Below, one piece after another: positions 14,772 to 18,960 of a DNA stretch of 20,848 bases. Made by a program: the position numbers and the translations under genes. Numbering within the stretch: the first letter of the stretch is position 1; each line of letters begins with the position of its first letter. The stretch covers positions 1 to 20,848 of IMG/VR virus record IMGVR_UViG_3300025086_000318. One strand, written 5' to 3'. Source of the DNA: a virus. The notes under the pieces were generated by a model. The model saw only the letters and a list, made by a program, of their open reading frames with translations, had not been told where the DNA came from and did not search any database.

Positions 14772-14844
14772 GGCGGACCGGCCTCGAGCCAAGCCCGACC
14801 CGACCCGACCCCGACCCGATGCCCAGCGCCCGACCCGACCGGGC
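14772..14844 (+). repeat. CTCGAG/GC block with (CCGAC)n array, copy 1
   Basis: GGCGGACCGG (14772-14781, exact again at 17462-17471) leads into CCTCGAGCC and then tandem CGACC pentamers with interruptions, ending CCCGACCCGACCGGGCA. The array has the same strand orientation as the blocks at about 15700, 17540 and 18850. Confidence 0.7.
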
Positions 14845-14899: not shown

Positions 14900-15178
14900 T
14901 CATGATTTGAACCCTAACGTCGGGCCGAGAATCTGGTCCGCGATCATCTGGCCACGTTCCACGGCCTTCGCGTGATTCCATTTCGATGGGTTGATAAAGC
15001 TTTCGGGATAGTCGGCTTTCGCATCCTCTTCGCTGTCGTAAACTTCGGTATGCATAACCAAGCCGGAACCGTCGCACTCGTGGCAATCGCTTTCCTTAAA
15101 TTCATCGACAGCGATCTGGTGTTCGTGGATTCCGTAGCCATCGCATTCGGGGCATTGGGTGTGAATTTCGTATTCCAT
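14900..15178 (-). CDS. DnaJ-type CxxCxGxG zinc-finger protein
   Basis: A 92-residue protein with two CxxCxGxG repeats: CPECDGYG (9-16) and CHECDGSG (32-39). This is the pattern of one zinc-binding unit of the DnaJ cysteine-rich domain. The rest is acidic and has a region VYDSEEDAKADYPESFINPS of unknown role. The ATG at 15178 has GGAG six bases upstream; the ATG at 15190 is part of that ribosome-binding site. There is no J domain, so a chaperone function cannot be claimed; isolated single-unit CxxCxGxG proteins are common in phage early regions. It is transcribed from the divergent promoter at 15192-15241 and ends at the UUCG-loop terminator. Confidence 0.75.
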   Translation of the reverse strand: MEYEIHTQCPECDGYGIHEHQIAVDEFKESDCHECDGSGLVMHTEVYDSEEDAKADYPESFINPSKWNHAKAVERGQMIADQILGPTLGFKS

Positions 15179-15191
15179 GTTTCGCTCCATC

Positions 15192-15241
15192 GGTTGTTGA
15201 CTTCTATTTTATATCATGGGATAACATGGGGGTCAACAACA
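15192..15241. promoter_or_regulatory. Divergent promoter cassette with paired GTTGTTGAC boxes
   Basis: GGTTGTTGAC (15192-15201) and GTCAACAACA (15232-15241) flank exactly 30 bp. Minus strand: TTGACC, 17 bp, TATAAA, a good sigma-70 promoter for the 92-residue gene. Plus strand: TTGACT, 17 bp, GATAAC preceded by TGG, for the 97-residue gene. Each box is thus -35 for one direction and transcript start region for the other. The central TATCATGGGATA is itself an imperfect operator-like palindrome. Confidence 0.75.
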
Positions 15242-15258
15242 CATAGGAGAAAATTGAC

Positions 15259-15552
15259 ATGGCAAATCCACTAGGCAAAGGCCGCAAAATCGAAAACCCA
15301 TATGCGACGTTTAAGGCGCACCATCCGGATCTCGGGCATTGGGAAATTCGGGTTTTGAAAACCCATAAGCTTCCCAAAAACGAAAACGAATATGACACGT
15401 GGTACACCGCCGGAAAATCGGACGCGACATATGGGTCGTGGGAATATGGCGATATGTACAAGTCAGAAATCACTCGCATGGGGTTAGTCTATGCCTCGCC
15501 GGAATTCACCGAGGCCTACCGCGACGACCCGGCAATTCCTGTGGCCGACTAG
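15259..15552 (+). CDS. Hypothetical protein, early region
   Basis: A 97-residue protein, MANPLGKGRKIENPYATFKA at the start, rich in Tyr, Trp and His (HHPDLGHWEIRVLKTHKLPK, YDTWYTAGKSDATYGSWEYG). AGGAG nine bases before the ATG fixes the start. It looks like a compact alpha/beta protein, and an aromatic stretch followed by 'GDMYKSEITR' could be a conserved core. I vaguely recall similar short proteins in alphaproteobacterial phages but cannot name a family. It stands alone: divergent promoter on the left, strong UUCG-loop terminator at 15574-15601 on the right. Confidence 0.7.
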   Translation: MANPLGKGRKIENPYATFKAHHPDLGHWEIRVLKTHKLPKNENEYDTWYTAGKSDATYGSWEYGDMYKSEITRMGLVYASPEFTEAYRDDPAIPVAD

Positions 15553-15572
15553 TCCATCATTTCCCAGGAGAT
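15552..15572 (-). repeat. 21-bp inverted copy of the element at 18834-18854
   Basis: On the minus strand this reads ATCTCCTGGGAAATGATGG plus AC, identical over 21 bp to 18834-18854 on the plus strand. The promoter at 17619-17665 contains a near-match (CATCCTGGGAAATCATGG, 17625-17643). It lies between the stop of the 97-residue gene and its terminator. Confidence 0.75.
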
Positions 15573-15573
15573 T

Positions 15574-15601
15574 GGGGAGGCCTTCGGGCCTCCCCTTTTT
15601 T
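15574..15601 (+). terminator. Intrinsic terminator with UUCG loop
   Basis: GGGGAGGCC (15574-15582), TTCG, GGCCTCCCC (15587-15595), then TTTTTT (15596-15601). A perfect 9-bp stem, 22 bp past the stop of the 97-residue plus-strand gene. Confidence 0.92.
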
Positions 15602-15727
15602 GTGCCCGGACCAGGCTCGAGCCTGGTCTGAACTTGGTTCGGGCCGAGCTATCGCCCGGCCCCAGCGCCGGGCTGCCGGGCTCGAGACCGGGTCAGCTCC
15701 CGACCCGACCCGACCCGACAACGGGGC
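15602..15727 (+). repeat. CTCGAG palindromes and (CCGAC)n array, copy 2
   Basis: GACCAGGCTCGAGCCTGGTC (15609-15628) is a perfect 20-bp palindrome. CCCGG/CCGGG (about 15660-15676) and an imperfect CCGGGCTCGAGACCGGG follow, then four to five tandem CCGAC units (about 15698-15720). No gene is credible here; it lies between two converging terminators. Confidence 0.7.
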
Positions 15728-15756
15728 AAAAGAAAAGGGCGACCCGAAGGTCGCCC
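15728..15756 (-). terminator. Intrinsic terminator, same hairpin as at 14853-14872
   Basis: GGGCGACCCGAAGGTCGCCC (15737-15756) is identical to the hairpin at 14853-14872. On the minus strand the UUCG-loop stem is followed by TTTTCTTTT (15728-15736). It lies 65 bp past the stop of the Api92-like gene. Between them, GCCCGATCCCCGA occurs twice (15753-15765 and 15794-15806). Confidence 0.8.
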
Positions 15757-15820
15757 GATCCCCGAACCTAGCAGCTGGCACAAAAGCGGCTAGGCCCGAT
15801 CCCCGACAAGGTTTCCCCTG

Positions 15821-16258
15821 TCACTCCCGATTATTGAACTCGTGAAACGAACCACAACCCTCATAACCTTCGTGGATATATCCGCCCTCAAAATCAAGGT
15901 CTGGCCACTTATCCCACAGCGCGGTGATCACCTCGCGGGGAGTGTCCCACGCGGTATCAAACCGATACGTCGCCTGCTTTATGTTCATGCCTTCGTAGTC
16001 TTCGATTTCTACCGGACCTTCATGATGGCAAGCGTTCCACTTGGTCCCCCAATTTTCGGATTGCCAATCGTACCAGTTCGGGATTCCCTCCGCTGCGCAC
16101 CGCTCCTTGTCTTCTTCTGACAAGTTATCGCGGAACATATTTTCGGGCGACGGTATCACCTTCTCAAAATCCATTTCGTCTCCCATGTGCGCGATGAACT
16201 TGTCAACGTCCTCCGGTTTGCCGACGACGTTTAAGATGTTGCTTGTCCAGTTGGGCAT
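15821..16258 (-). CDS. Api92/YubB-like (DUF1281) protein
   Basis: A 145-residue protein starting MPNWTSNILNVVGKPEDVDK, the characteristic opening of the Api92-like/YubB group found on plasmids and phages. Further matches are FEKVIPSPENM (31-41) and NWYDWQSENWGTKWNACHHE (61-80), the hallmark Trp/Gly block, then YRFDTAWDTPREVITALWDK, as in the ferredoxin-like C-terminal domain. The biochemical function of this family is unknown. The ATG at 16258 overlaps the previous stop (ATGA); a GTG one codon upstream is ignored. It forms a two-gene unit with the upstream 162-residue gene, read from the cassette at 16760-16809 and ended at 15728-15756. Confidence 0.8.
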   Translation of the reverse strand: MPNWTSNILNVVGKPEDVDKFIAHMGDEMDFEKVIPSPENMFRDNLSEEDKERCAAEGIPNWYDWQSENWGTKWNACHHEGPVEIEDYEGMNIKQATYRFDTAWDTPREVITALWDKWPDLDFEGGYIHEGYEGCGSFHEFNNRE

Positions 16259-16746
16259 CACGCTACCTCCCTATTTTTAGCGCGTTGCGTTGCGAGTAGA
16301 TCATCAAGCGGACCCTCCATCTCAATGCGGTGGGTTGTCGGAAAACCGTCTGCGGCCATAGGAAACGTATGGCCCCAATCAACGGACAGAACCGTGACGC
16401 GAACGTCTTCGCCTCCGGACGTAATCTTATACCAGTACTCGCAATCAGAAGCGTATTCCCACGGTTGCTGATCTCCAATTAAACGAACGCCTCCGCCGAC
16501 AGACTTGTTAGCTTTAACAAACGAGGCCGCGAATTCGTCGGCCTCGAACCGTGGCAAATCCCACGCAAACCCCTTCGCGTCTTTTATCCAGACGAGGCCT
16601 CCGCCTTCAAAGGTTTCTCCATTATGAAGGCCTCCGGTATAGGGATATCCATCATGGTGCTTGTAAACGTGAACTTCTGACCTGAGACGGTAGGTGTTAG
16701 CGAAGTCGTCAGAATCGTAAAAAGTGTAAATTGCTCTTGTGGACAT
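16258..16746 (-). CDS. Conserved phage/bacterial protein 'MSTRAIYTF' type
   Basis: A 162-residue protein starting MSTRAIYTFYDSDDFANTYR with an excellent Shine-Dalgarno (GGAGG). It contains VHVYKHHDGYPYTGGLHNGE (about 25-44), a block I remember in a family of uncharacterised bacterial and phage proteins that start MSTRA-Y-F and carry 'VYKHHDGYP'. The remainder includes GGGLVWIKDAKGFAWDLPRF and EYWYKITSGGEDVRVTVLSV, probably beta strands. A frame extending to 16785 crosses the promoter and is not used. It is coupled to the Api92-like gene. Function unknown; early expression is suggested by the promoter. Confidence 0.7.
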   Translation of the reverse strand: MSTRAIYTFYDSDDFANTYRLRSEVHVYKHHDGYPYTGGLHNGETFEGGGLVWIKDAKGFAWDLPRFEADEFAASFVKANKSVGGGVRLIGDQQPWEYASDCEYWYKITSGGEDVRVTVLSVDWGHTFPMAADGFPTTHRIEMEGPLDDLLATQRAKNREVA

Positions 16747-16759
16747 ATCGTCCTCCATT

Positions 16760-16809
16760 GGTTGTTGACAGTCAGAATGTCCCATATATAATGGATCACG
16801 TCAACAACC
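16760..16809. promoter_or_regulatory. Divergent promoter cassette, second copy
   Basis: GGTTGTTGAC (16760-16769) and GTCAACAACC (16800-16809) are perfect complements flanking exactly 30 bp, the same spacing as at 15192-15241. Plus strand: TTGACA, 16 bp, TATAAT (consensus at both boxes) for the DUF3085-like gene. Minus strand: TTGACG is present but the -10 is poor. The leader GTCAACAACCAACGGAG carries the Shine-Dalgarno; the minus leader is GTCAACAACCAATGGAGG. Confidence 0.8.
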
Positions 16810-16823
16810 AACGGAGCATGAAA

Positions 16824-17210
16824 ATGCACAAGCTTATTTTTAAAAACGACAAGGCCGGAACGCTGGCCAAAATGCTAGAGCATTCCAACGCGAACAAGCG
16901 TCGGATTCCGTACACACAAAACGAGACGGAGGATCAAGGCCTTTGGCTTGTTAAGGATGAAGGCATCTATTTGATGTCGCCAACGGCGGAGAACTTCATC
17001 ATGTCAAACGATGTCAACACCGTGGTCTATGCGCGGGGATACAAACCCACGAAGACAAACCGAGACACCTTATGGGACAAAACCCACGCGGTGAGCGGTG
17101 ACGACTTCGCGGAGTTCGTTCGCCTTACGCCCAACATGGTTCGCAATGTGCTTCGCGGAAGTGACATCACCATCGAATTGAGCGAGACGCAGATGGCGGT
17201 GACAGCATGA
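16824..17210 (+). CDS. DUF3085-like protein
   Basis: A 128-residue protein. The ATG at 16824 is chosen because GGAG lies 7 bases before it; the ATG two codons earlier is too close. Matches to what I remember of DUF3085: GLWLVKDEGIYLMSPTAENF (about 40-59), VVYARGYKPT (about 69-78) and SGDDFAEFV (about 92-100). This family is spread over plasmids, phages and proteobacterial genomes, without known function. It is first in a two-gene unit, with the zinc-ribbon gene coupled by ATGA, under the strongest promoter of the region. Confidence 0.65.
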   Translation: MHKLIFKNDKAGTLAKMLEHSNANKRRIPYTQNETEDQGLWLVKDEGIYLMSPTAENFIMSNDVNTVVYARGYKPTKTNRDTLWDKTHAVSGDDFAEFVRLTPNMVRNVLRGSDITIELSETQMAVTA

Positions 17211-17416
17211 GAAACCTTGATCCAAACTATGGCGACAATACGGCGTGCGATTGTTGCGGTCGCGTTTTCGACGTTCGCAATGAGCCGCACGAAGTGATCG
17301 GCGACAATTGGGTTTGCGGCAGTTGCGTTGAATACTACGACGAGGAGGAGCTGCGGGAGCGGCTCCTCTCCGCTAATTTTTGGGGCGCAGTGTGCCAGAA
17401 TCTGAGCGCCAATTGA
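17207..17416 (+). CDS. Small zinc-ribbon protein
   Basis: A 69-residue protein, MRNLDPNYGDNTACDCCGRV at the start. Cys 14/17 and 37/40 make CxxC-x19-CxxC, a zinc ribbon, with an extra Cys at 16 and one near the C-terminus. An acidic helix follows (EYYDEEELRERLLSANF). The ATG overlaps the DUF3085-like stop. No name; a small adaptor or nucleic-acid-contacting protein of the early region is plausible. The unit ends at hairpins 17423-17447 and 17506-17532. Confidence 0.7.
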   Translation: MRNLDPNYGDNTACDCCGRVFDVRNEPHEVIGDNWVCGSCVEYYDEEELRERLLSANFWGAVCQNLSAN

Positions 17417-17422
17417 CATCTG

Positions 17423-17447
17423 GGGGAGGCGGATCTACCGTCTCCCC
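17423..17447 (+). terminator. 10-bp hairpin after the zinc-ribbon gene
   Basis: GGGGAGGCGG (17423-17432), loop ATCTA, CCGTCTCCCC (17438-17447), with one G-U pair. It is followed only by TTA, so on its own a weak terminator; a stronger one follows at 17506. Confidence 0.6.
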
Positions 17448-17466
17448 TTACCTCCCTGACGGGCGG

Positions 17467-17484
17467 ACCGGGCTCGAGCCCGGT
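17467..17484. repeat. Perfect 18-bp palindrome centred on CTCGAG
   Basis: ACCGGGCTCGAGCCCGGT, preceded by GGCGG as in the 14772 block. It belongs to the CTCGAG palindrome family seen also at 15609-15628 and, imperfectly, near 14783 and 15681. Confidence 0.85.
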
Positions 17485-17505
17485 ATTCCCCCGCCCGACA
17501 CCTTG

Positions 17506-17532
17506 GCCCAGGCCCCGCGCCTGGGCTTTTTT
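17506..17532 (+). terminator. Intrinsic terminator
   Basis: GCCCAGGC (17506-17513), loop CCCGC, GCCTGGGC (17519-17526), then TTTTTT (17527-17532). A textbook plus-strand terminator for the DUF3085-like/zinc-ribbon unit. Confidence 0.9.
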
Positions 17533-17536
17533 ATTG

Positions 17537-17618
17537 GCCCGACCCGACCGACCCCGACCCGACCCGACCCGACCCGACCCGACCTGGCCGGCGCTCGAAA
17601 TAAACCCGACCCCGACCC
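17537..17618 (+). repeat. (CCGAC)n array, copy 3
   Basis: The longest uninterrupted array: CCCGACCCGACCGACCCCG, then about six further tandem CCGAC units to about 17584. A GGCCGGCGCTCG interruption and a second short array (about 17605-17618) follow. The array abuts the -35 box of the next promoter. It lies directly after the terminator, in the same strand orientation as the other arrays. Confidence 0.8.
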
Positions 17619-17665
17619 GTTGACACATCCTGGGAAATCATGGTATATTGACCCCGTCAACAACC
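17619..17665 (+). promoter_or_regulatory. Promoter cassette for the GP88-like gene (third copy)
   Basis: GTTGAC (17619-17624) and GTCAACAACC (17656-17665) are 31 bp apart. Plus strand: TTGACA, 18 bp, TATATT, with ATCATGG immediately before the -10, giving an extended -10 (TG-G-TATATT). Only the right box is complete at 10 bp; no gene leaves leftwards, and the left box is reduced to 6 bp, as expected if the full box matters only in divergent use. The GAGG Shine-Dalgarno follows the box. Confidence 0.75.
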
Positions 17666-17678
17666 AACGAGGTTTATC

Positions 17679-18416
17679 ATGCCTAAGTTTACCAAGTTCT
17701 TTTCCACTGATAGCGCGAAAGCGATCAAGGCCGACAAGTACGGTTGGCTAAACGCAATCAACTACATGGCCCCGCACGATACCGCAGGCGTTGGCAATCT
17801 TTGCCCGAACGCAAGCGAGGGTTGCAAGGCCTTGTGTCTCGGAATGTACAGCGGCCAAGCCGCAATGGTTACCGATCTCGAAAACGGGACGAACGCCGTT
17901 CGCGAAAGCCGAATTGCCAAGTCTCAATATTTCATGGACGAACGCCAAGCGTTCATGGCCGAGATGGCGGGTCACGTTCGCGCCATGATTCGGAAAGCGG
18001 GTCGCGAAAACAAAAAGCTGGCGGTTCGCCCCAACGGATCCACGGACATTGCTTTCGAGCGGATCCCAACGGACAACGGCCAGCCTTTGCCAATCCGGTT
18101 TCCGGAAATACAATTCGTGGATTACACCAAAAGCGTGCGCCGCGTGTTAGACGCTAATCGGCCAGCCAACTATCACCTGACGTTTAGCCTATCCGAAACT
18201 AACAAGGCGGAAGCCGAACAAGTACTCGCGGCTGGTTTCAACGTCGCGGTAGTATTTGGCGCAGGCCAGCCAGCCACGTTCATGGGTCACCGCGTGATCG
18301 ATGGCACGGAACATGACTTACGACACTTGGATCCGCAACCCGTTATTGTCGGGCTGGATCCGAAGGGCAAGAAAGCGAAAGCCGACACTAGCGGTTTTGT
18401 TGTGCGGGGGTATTAA
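17679..18416 (+). CDS. GP88-like protein (phage gene product 88 family)
   Basis: A 245-residue protein. Residues 40-60 (NLCPNASEGCKALCLGMYSG) have three Cys (42, 49, 53) in the CPNA-x3-C-x3-C pattern I associate with the 'gene product 88' family of mycobacteriophages and other phages. NAVRESRIAKSQYFMDERQA (72-91), LAVRPNGSTDIAFE (114-127) and PEIQFVDYTKSVRR (142-155) also agree with that family. 'RxNGxxD' and 'FxDYTK' are its conserved blocks. The Cys cluster could hold a metal or Fe-S centre; the fold with alternating strands recalls TIM-barrel-like enzymes, but no activity is known to me. GAGG six bases before the ATG fixes the start. The following 68-residue gene begins 1 bp after its stop. 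Confidence 0.75.
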   Translation: MPKFTKFFSTDSAKAIKADKYGWLNAINYMAPHDTAGVGNLCPNASEGCKALCLGMYSGQAAMVTDLENGTNAVRESRIAKSQYFMDERQAFMAEMAGHVRAMIRKAGRENKKLAVRPNGSTDIAFERIPTDNGQPLPIRFPEIQFVDYTKSVRRVLDANRPANYHLTFSLSETNKAEAEQVLAAGFNVAVVFGAGQPATFMGHRVIDGTEHDLRHLDPQPVIVGLDPKGKKAKADTSGFVVRGY

Positions 18417-18417
18417 A

Positions 18418-18624
18418 ATGGGGGAATTATGTTTTGATATCGATCTTCGTTTGTCCGATGATGAAAACGTTCGTTTAGAAGTTACCGAAAATTATGAGGG
18501 GGATAAATACCACGTTGTGGTATTTATCGACGGTGATCATTGGAACACCGTAGGCCTTAGTAGCGGGAATGAATTACTTAAATATATGTCAGCATTTAAT
18601 ACGGCGCCGGTTGTTGACACTTGA
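18418..18624 (+). CDS. Small acidic hypothetical protein
   Basis: A 68-residue acidic protein, MGELCFDIDLRLSDDENVRL at the start, with probable beta strands (YHVVVFIDGDHW) and a C-terminal helix (GNELLKYMSAFN). It starts 1 bp after the GP88-like stop, so it is translated from the same mRNA, although its ribosome-binding site (GGGGG) is poor. It is more AT-rich than its surroundings. Its last codons contain GGTTGTTGAC (18609-18618), identical to the promoter box, without a usable -10 downstream. Family unknown. Confidence 0.65.
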   Translation: MGELCFDIDLRLSDDENVRLEVTENYEGDKYHVVVFIDGDHWNTVGLSSGNELLKYMSAFNTAPVVDT

Positions 18625-18659
18625 TGGCGCCGCCGGTGGCTGGGTGCACCTGGCCGCCG

Positions 18660-18690
18660 AACCCCGGTCAGATTTATCTGGCCGGGGTTT
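18660..18690 (+). terminator. Terminator for the GP88-like unit
   Basis: AACCCCGGTCAGA (18660-18672), TTTA loop, TCTGGCCGGGGTT (18677-18689): 13 pairs with one G-U, followed by a short T run. It lies 36 bp past the stop of the 68-residue gene. Confidence 0.75.
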
Positions 18691-18960
18691 CCTATACCCC
18701 TGGCCCAGGCCGATGGTCTCGAGGACCAGGCTGGCCAATCCGGCGCCGGGTGTATCCGATCAGAAACTCTTGGAGCCCGAGCTGGTCCGACCCCGACCAG
18801 AGGCACGGCACCATGGTCCCTGGCCCCGACCCGATCTCCTGGGAAATGATGGACCCCGACCCGACCGACCCAGACCCCGACCCGACCGACCCCGGTCCAT
18901 GGTCCCCGACCCGACCCGACTTGAGCCCGTGTTCCGCTAGCTCCCGACCCCGACTCCCGT
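18691..18960 (+). repeat. GC-rich repeat block with (CCGAC)n arrays, copy 4
   Basis: The largest block. It holds GGCCCAGG and TCTCGAGGACC-type palindromic bits, the 21-bp element (18834-18854) that recurs inverted at 15552-15572, and a 20-bp direct repeat GACCCCGACCCGACCGACCC at 18852-18871 and 18873-18892 (period 21). CCATGGTCCC occurs twice (18812, 18898) and further CGACC units run to about 18960. On the minus strand it is read as the C-terminus of the nuclease gene. Confidence 0.75.

Follow-up and report, generated by a model that had tools for sequence, protein, structure and literature searches.

The 20,848-nucleotide stretch analysed here (IMG/VR record IMGVR_UViG_3300025086_000318, hereafter the window) is a complete 20.8-kb virus record, the terminase of which shows 65–69% DNA identity to those of Pelagibacter phage HTVC027P, phage 023Pt_psg01 and phage DSL-LC04. 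Three promoter cassettes in the window share a conserved box, GUCAACAACC, which coincides with positions +1 to +10 of the predicted mRNAs. The exact complement of this leader is found in the loop of a hairpin, H1, located 3′ of a GP88-family gene, and leader and loop vary together among related phages. These sequence relationships suggest that the box probably functions as a shared 5′ leader tag and as the pairing partner of an antisense RNA loop, providing feedback on the set of tagged genes. The relatives used for the spacing and promoter counts were selected via their terminase or GP88 protein, without use of the box; loci and contigs are designated by L-numbers (L175, L064, etc.). The lineages are related, so that counts of leaders and loops across contigs do not represent independent events.

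Promoter cassettes and the shared leader

A first-pass annotation of the window had described complementary 10-bp boxes, 30 bp apart, in two divergent intergenic regions, and a partial pair at a third, unidirectional promoter; all three sites are present. The left boxes, GGTTGTTGAC, lie at 15192–15201 and 16760–16769 and are followed, each after a gap of 30 bp, by the right boxes GTCAACAACA (15232–15241, complementary to the left box at 9 of 10 positions) and GTCAACAACC (16800–16809, complementary at 10 of 10). At the third site, GTTGAC (17619–17624) and GTCAACAACC (17656–17665) have 31 bp between the hexamers. The predicted features are as follows.

15192–15241, both strands: cassette 1, overlapping divergent promoters
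Cassette 1, plus strand promoter: −35 TTGACT at 15197, −10 GATAAC, +1 leader GTCAACAAC at 15232–15240
Cassette 1, minus strand promoter: TTGACC, −10 TATAAA, +1 leader GTCAACAACC from 15201 down to 15192
16760–16809, both strands: cassette 2, overlapping divergent promoters
Cassette 2, plus strand promoter: TTGACA-N16-TATAAT, +1 leader GTCAACAACC at 16800–16809
Cassette 2, minus strand: leader GTCAACAACC from 16769 down to 16760
17619–17665, plus strand: cassette 3, unidirectional promoter of the GP88 gene, TTGACA-N18-TATATT with extended −10, leader GTCAACAACC at 17656–17665

The general layout comprises TTGAC(A), a spacer of 16 to 18, a TATAAT-like and often extended −10 element, 6–7 nucleotides, GTCAACAAC, a Shine-Dalgarno sequence and ATG. 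The sigma70-type consensus (TTGACA, 16–18, TATAAT) is matched at 12 of 12 positions at 16765 and at 11 of 12 at 17620, in keeping with membership of this promoter class, and judged by these hexamers a cassette consists of either a single sigma70-like promoter or two that overlap. For all five transcripts of the three sites the predicted 5′ end is GUCAACAAC(C/A), located a few nucleotides 5′ of the Shine-Dalgarno sequence. The −10 hexamers and spacings are consistent with the proposal that TTGAC of each box serves as the −35 element in one direction and lies at the predicted transcript start in the other. At the divergent sites the opposing promoters interlock, such that the left box is the leader of the second gene on the other strand. 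Because TTGAC (−35) is complementary to GTCAA (+1), the cassette seems paired only at these interlocked promoters; its mirror-image appearance is a by-product of GTTGAC, the complement of the leader, doubling as the −35 element of the opposite promoter.

The arrangement is genuine and occurs far more often than expected by chance. The pattern GTTGAC-N25–38-GTCAAC occurs three times in the window against 0.02 expected, and in relatives the hexamer gap is 29–33 in 44 of 53 pairs; the remaining nine pairs are scattered at gaps of at least 50, and all other gaps within 0–120 are empty. Many matches from sequence searches, without a start codon and −10 element in place, represent chance or elements of other phages.

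The tight spacing (29–33) and the conservation of the box at the DNA level would also fit transcriptional control by a phage or host DNA-binding protein for which GGTTGTTGAC, at −35 and +1, is the operator, either paired or single. Overall this explanation is decidedly unlikely, and the paired arrangement, as proposed in the first-pass annotation, is unsupported. Among 32 divergent and 24 unidirectional promoters of family loci selected independently of the box, for which a leader-like +1 was required for inclusion, the −35 TTGAC is present in 32/32 and 16/24, respectively, and GTCAAC-type leaders are kept in both classes alike. The GTTG that precedes TTGAC, in contrast, is matched at three or more of its four letters in 31/32 divergent promoters versus 0/24 unidirectional ones, where the left box is reduced to the −35 element. 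Cassette 3 likewise contains a bare −35 without the GGTTG extension. In the unidirectional GP88 promoters of relatives, which were extracted without a leader filter, the leader is retained and the left side shows only −35 letters. In phages with a leader changed to GCCAAC the −35 element is TTGCC, TTGCG or TTGCA rather than the complement of the leader. A looping or dimer-of-dimers repressor would be accompanied by both boxes at every regulated promoter, which is not observed. The paired-box operator is therefore rejected, as none of the 24 unidirectional promoters holds the left extension. Insertion-element ends were also discarded as an explanation, since the cassette is only ~50 bp long, keeps a constant position between start codons and lacks its left arm wherever the promoter is unidirectional.

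The spacers of the window (15202–15231, 16770–16799 and 17625–17655) and of its relatives contain TGGGA/TGGTA or the complement TCCCA/TACCA. At least one such half-site (TGGKA/TMCCA) is found in 50 of 56 family promoters and two in 22 of 56, compared to about 8% and 0.3% for shuffled spacers. The half-sites, which come in addition to the extended −10 element, may constitute a site for a transcription regulator; at this frequency binding of a regulator between the boxes is quite plausible, a point in favour of the operator explanation.

The hairpins downstream of GP88

Scanning with a weight matrix of the leader revealed box copies within G+C-rich hairpins, leading to H1, the first of three successive hairpins.

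18602–18632, plus strand: H1, arms CGGCGCC (18602–18608) and GGCGCCG (18626–18632)
18634–18659, plus strand: H2, G+C-rich, 11 bp, from folding
18660–18689, plus strand: H3, 13 bp, T-rich tail, resembling a terminator in most relatives

The loop of H1 starts with GGTTGTTGAC (18609–18618), an exact antisense of the leader. Nearly all family loci show the same arrangement 3′ of GP88 and on the same strand, with a hairpin whose loop begins with GGTTGTTGAC, followed by H2 and a terminator-like H3; of the 84 H1 sites, 69 follow GP88 at a distance of up to 1.5 kb and have the loop on the GP88 coding strand. In the larger contigs (27 to 58 kb) a single H1 is accompanied by 1 to 5 leaders. GP88 (PF17338) is the usual linked gene, with DUF7227 in its place in some lineages. 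GP88 is thus not an obligate partner, as H1 also follows DUF7227-type genes (strong in L064, weak in L169); a low-depth profile comparison detected no relation between GP88 and DUF7227. In L195 (2075, plus strand) the loop of the terminator-like H3 contains GTTATTGAC, a second near-copy of the antisense box.

The H1 stems of relatives are wholly different in sequence (CGGCGCC, GTCGGTC, GCGTGTC, CTCGCGC, CCCGTGC, GGCGCAT, CGGGGCC and others), with complementarity kept. In 19 distinct hairpins 99.2% of the cells are paired, all seven pairs are changed on both sides, and 55 double changes are observed versus 17.1 in shuffles; for this analysis the arms were brought into register manually, the variable loop segment was omitted and the right arm was chosen for pairing. 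Because of this choice an independent control was made on sites selected solely for having, within a contig, the highest complementarity to its GP88 leader. Of 19 such sites, 14 are flanked by a stem of 7 bp or longer, a length which shuffled flanks reach in 2.2%. In a 22-sequence alignment of H1–H3 the only invariant columns are the loop letters TTGTTG.C and one G in H3. RNAalifold on a plain MAFFT alignment missed H1, because the stems vary in sequence and the loops in length. A scan of the window against Rfam, at E-values up to 5, yielded no match over 18600–18700, which speaks against a known RNA family for H1–H3; elsewhere in the window only marginal matches were obtained.

Hairpin and leader also occur together. 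Of 46 contigs found by the hairpin pattern alone, 43 contain a leader promoter, and these hairpin-selected contigs yield 122 leader-promoter matches versus none in reversed sequence. Two of the three exceptions start inside GP88; in the third, L273, the leader lies 39 nucleotides from the end and was skipped by the filter. In a search for the host among GTDB contigs the hairpin pattern gave a single match, in a contig of an Arthrobacter metagenome-assembled genome, which was taken as chance. No leader was found in ~147 kb, mostly partial regions, of the hairpin-less relatives HTVC027P, 023Pt_psg01, DSL-LC04, HTVC023P, HMO-2011, CRP-6, HTVC115P and Lo5R7ANS. The cultured relatives HTVC027P and 023Pt contain neither leader nor hairpin, and the HTVC027P transcriptome (PMC12753301) therefore cannot test the element; for phages that do carry it, no transcriptome was found.

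A separate observation concerns L039, from another phage, where four tandem unidirectional promoters (4674, 5416, 6025 and 6791, plus strand) start with GTCAACAAC, three of them directly before AGGAG; the paired box GTTGTTGAC-N30-GTCAACAAC is present in full at two of the four. An H1-like hairpin was not found in the stretch of L039 examined.

Leader–loop complementarity and its possible effect

In all 30 loci compared, each of positions 1–8 of the GP88 leader can form a Watson-Crick or G–U pair with the loop found in that contig, a result attained by none of 5000 loop swaps (a test that ignores phylogeny). Every leader change within these positions remains compatible with pairing: A5G, C6T and A7G give G–U pairs, and T2C accompanies a change of the loop from GAC to GGC. 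Considering all leaders, contigs with a GAC loop contain 163 GTC and 3 GCC leaders, all three spurious on inspection, whereas those with a GGC loop contain 32 GTC and 15 GCC leaders, a few of the 15 seemingly spurious. The loop G accepts both U and C and the loop A only U, which in terms of sequence is the logic of RNA wobble pairing. Where GGC-loop contigs have GCC leaders, these occur at unidirectional promoters, with GTC at the divergent ones, which retain it because GTC there must also serve the opposite −35 element. The syntenic hairpin with its exact antisense loop and the coupled variation strongly support the other proposal of the first-pass annotation, that the shared leader is a post-transcriptional signal. 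They also weigh against an operator: a double-stranded operator leaves unexplained a third copy of the box, on a fixed strand in the loop of a covarying hairpin, and the leader substitutions at positions 1–8 that preserve G–U pairing with their own contig's loop.

The same observations argue against the very improbable explanation that the leader merely enhances translation or mRNA stability, as an unstructured CA-rich 5′ untranslated region (UTR) or promoter-escape sequence without a partner RNA. Such a role would agree with the CA-rich, mostly unpaired leaders, located at +1 just 5′ of the Shine-Dalgarno sequence in all tagged genes, but it explains neither why a syntenic hairpin has a conserved antisense loop nor why GTC/GAC and GCC/GGC occur as pairs.

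A 10-bp leader–loop duplex has a predicted energy of about −14 kcal/mol, and the first ten nucleotides are predicted to be mostly unpaired in four of the five leaders of the window (0.82–0.98; 0.56 for the leader at 15232). The duplex would end ~4 nucleotides before the Shine-Dalgarno sequence, within the expected footprint of the 30S subunit. In L175 the complementarity extends across the Shine-Dalgarno sequence (loop CTCCGG-TTGTTGAC, leader GTCAACAA-A-CCGGAG). In the mechanism proposed here, the GP88 transcription unit would give rise, at its 3′ end, to a released RNA of ~100 nucleotides with three hairpins, the last terminator-like. The H1 loop of this RNA would display GGUUGUUGAC and pair in trans with tagged mRNAs at their 5′ ends, as well as with the GP88 mRNA itself. 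The likeliest outcome would be less translation or quicker decay of every tagged mRNA, since the duplex would fall inside the 30S footprint and, in L175, over the Shine-Dalgarno sequence. With the RNA at the 3′ end of the transcript of a tagged gene, the circuit would be one of feedback.

The main rival to reduced translation or decay is protection of the 5′ end, in which pairing would act positively, with the H1 loop capping 5′ ends against 5′-end-dependent decay or circularising the GP88 mRNA in cis. The duplex does span the extreme 5′ end (+1 to +10), and a tagged mRNA contains H1 in its 3′ UTR. This mode is nevertheless rather unlikely, as the duplex would lie inside the expected 30S footprint, stopping ~4 nucleotides short of the Shine-Dalgarno sequence, which it could cover in L175.

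Several observations weigh against an antisense RNA acting on the tagged mRNAs. The tail of H3 in the window, GGGGTTTCCTAT, is a weak T-tract, and upstream of H1 a separate RNA promoter was not identified, so that the H1 RNA may act only as a 3′ UTR. Minimum free energy folding places a 2-bp mini-stem within the H1 loop. The leader at 15232 ends with CAACA and may fold on itself, and its cofolding with H1 predicted no pairing. The switch to GCC leaders and GGC loops may derive from perhaps two lineages, which limits the swap test.

More tentatively, the phages may possess a regulon of one RNA and many mRNAs, in which every gene of an accessory cluster carries a common ten-nucleotide 5′ tag that would be read in trans by just one hairpin RNA, encoded at the 3′ end of a tagged operon. 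Genes would join by gaining the tag, and the GP88 or DUF7227 protein may be the protein partner of the RNA. If true, phages related to the abundant marine pelagiphages would contain a compact post-transcriptional regulon, the membership of which can be read from the sequence, as any gene whose message begins with GUCAACAAC would belong to it. The proposed reading accounts for the mirror look of the divergent cassette and predicts the behaviour of compensatory mutants (e.g., loop GTTGTTGAC to GTTGTTCAC, with the leader altered to match). In addition, a conserved +1 leader combined with its antisense in a hairpin loop offers a general route to search for such RNAs.

Tagged genes and comparison with known systems

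The genes following the leaders, and one neighbour, are listed below.

14900–15178, minus strand: leader-bearing gene of a CxxCxGxG zinc-finger-like protein (Pfam DnaJ_CXXCXGXG, 6e-6, below the curated cut-off)
15259–15552, plus strand: leader-bearing gene, 97 amino acids, no assigned function
16258–16746, minus strand: leader-bearing gene (MSTRAIYT...), no assigned function
15821–16261, minus strand: DUF1281_C gene, next on the same strand after the 16258–16746 gene
16824–17210, plus strand: leader-bearing DUF3085 gene (Pfam PF11284, 3e-14)
17679–18416, plus strand: leader-bearing GP88-family gene (PF17338, 3.8e-37; phrog_1617, 5.7e-57)

For the open reading frame starting at 15190 (15141–15190) the first ATG is probably too early; the ATG at 15178 is normally spaced after the leader and GGAG. 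Tandem CCCGA/CCGACC repeat arrays occupy intergenic positions in the gene cluster (14794–14819, 15699–15719, 17538–17584 and 18852–18892), and many relatives have comparable arrays on either side of the GP88 promoter and after H3.

Cluster K mycobacteriophages contain start-associated sequences that are repeated just upstream of many start codons. The leader resembles these as a repeated, conserved element just 5′ of many phage start codons, but differs in sequence. The sequence GGGATAGGAGCCC, which we take to be the cluster K start-associated sequence, was seen in L016, L046 and L060, and a hairpin scan of these three loci found no H1-like antisense hairpin. L016, L046, L057, L060, L077 and L099 are high-G+C phages with GGGATAGGAGCCC, in which GTTGTTGACATGCATACAG...CTGTATGCATGTCAACAAC forms a much longer inverted repeat, without H1. 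The early promoters of T4 are strong and sigma70-like, with a shared sequence. The cassettes are alike in this respect, but here the conserved element lies downstream of +1 and matches an RNA loop. A literature search, with most subscription papers outside its reach, found no description of the element or of a shared +1 tag with many targets.

The CI RNA of satellite P4 is the same kind of phage antisense RNA as c4 of P1/P7. The loops of c4 are complementary to the region of the ribosome-binding site (PMC12197685). Like c4, H1–H3 would be a phage-encoded structured RNA that exposes the complement in a loop of its predicted structure and pairs near the ribosome-binding site of phage mRNAs. Unlike c4, which targets a single transcript (ant), one loop here matches the shared +1 tag of up to five transcripts. 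No sequence relation of H1–H3 to c4 or CI was found by the Rfam scan of the window, the only check made; because of the absence of an Rfam match, H1–H3 is likened to these RNAs in mode but is not classified with them.

Trans-acting bacterial small RNAs derived from 3′ UTRs are located at the 3′ end of an mRNA, carry a terminator-like hairpin and use a short seed for several mRNAs. The maturation of UTR-derived small RNAs is dealt with in PMC8625941. H1–H3 shares the location at the mRNA 3′ end, with an intrinsic terminator-like hairpin whose T-tail is weak in the window, and the short seed that matches several mRNAs. It differs in that the seed lies in the loop of the first hairpin and that the upstream gene itself carries the target leader, so that the set of putative targets includes the gene from which the RNA would originate.

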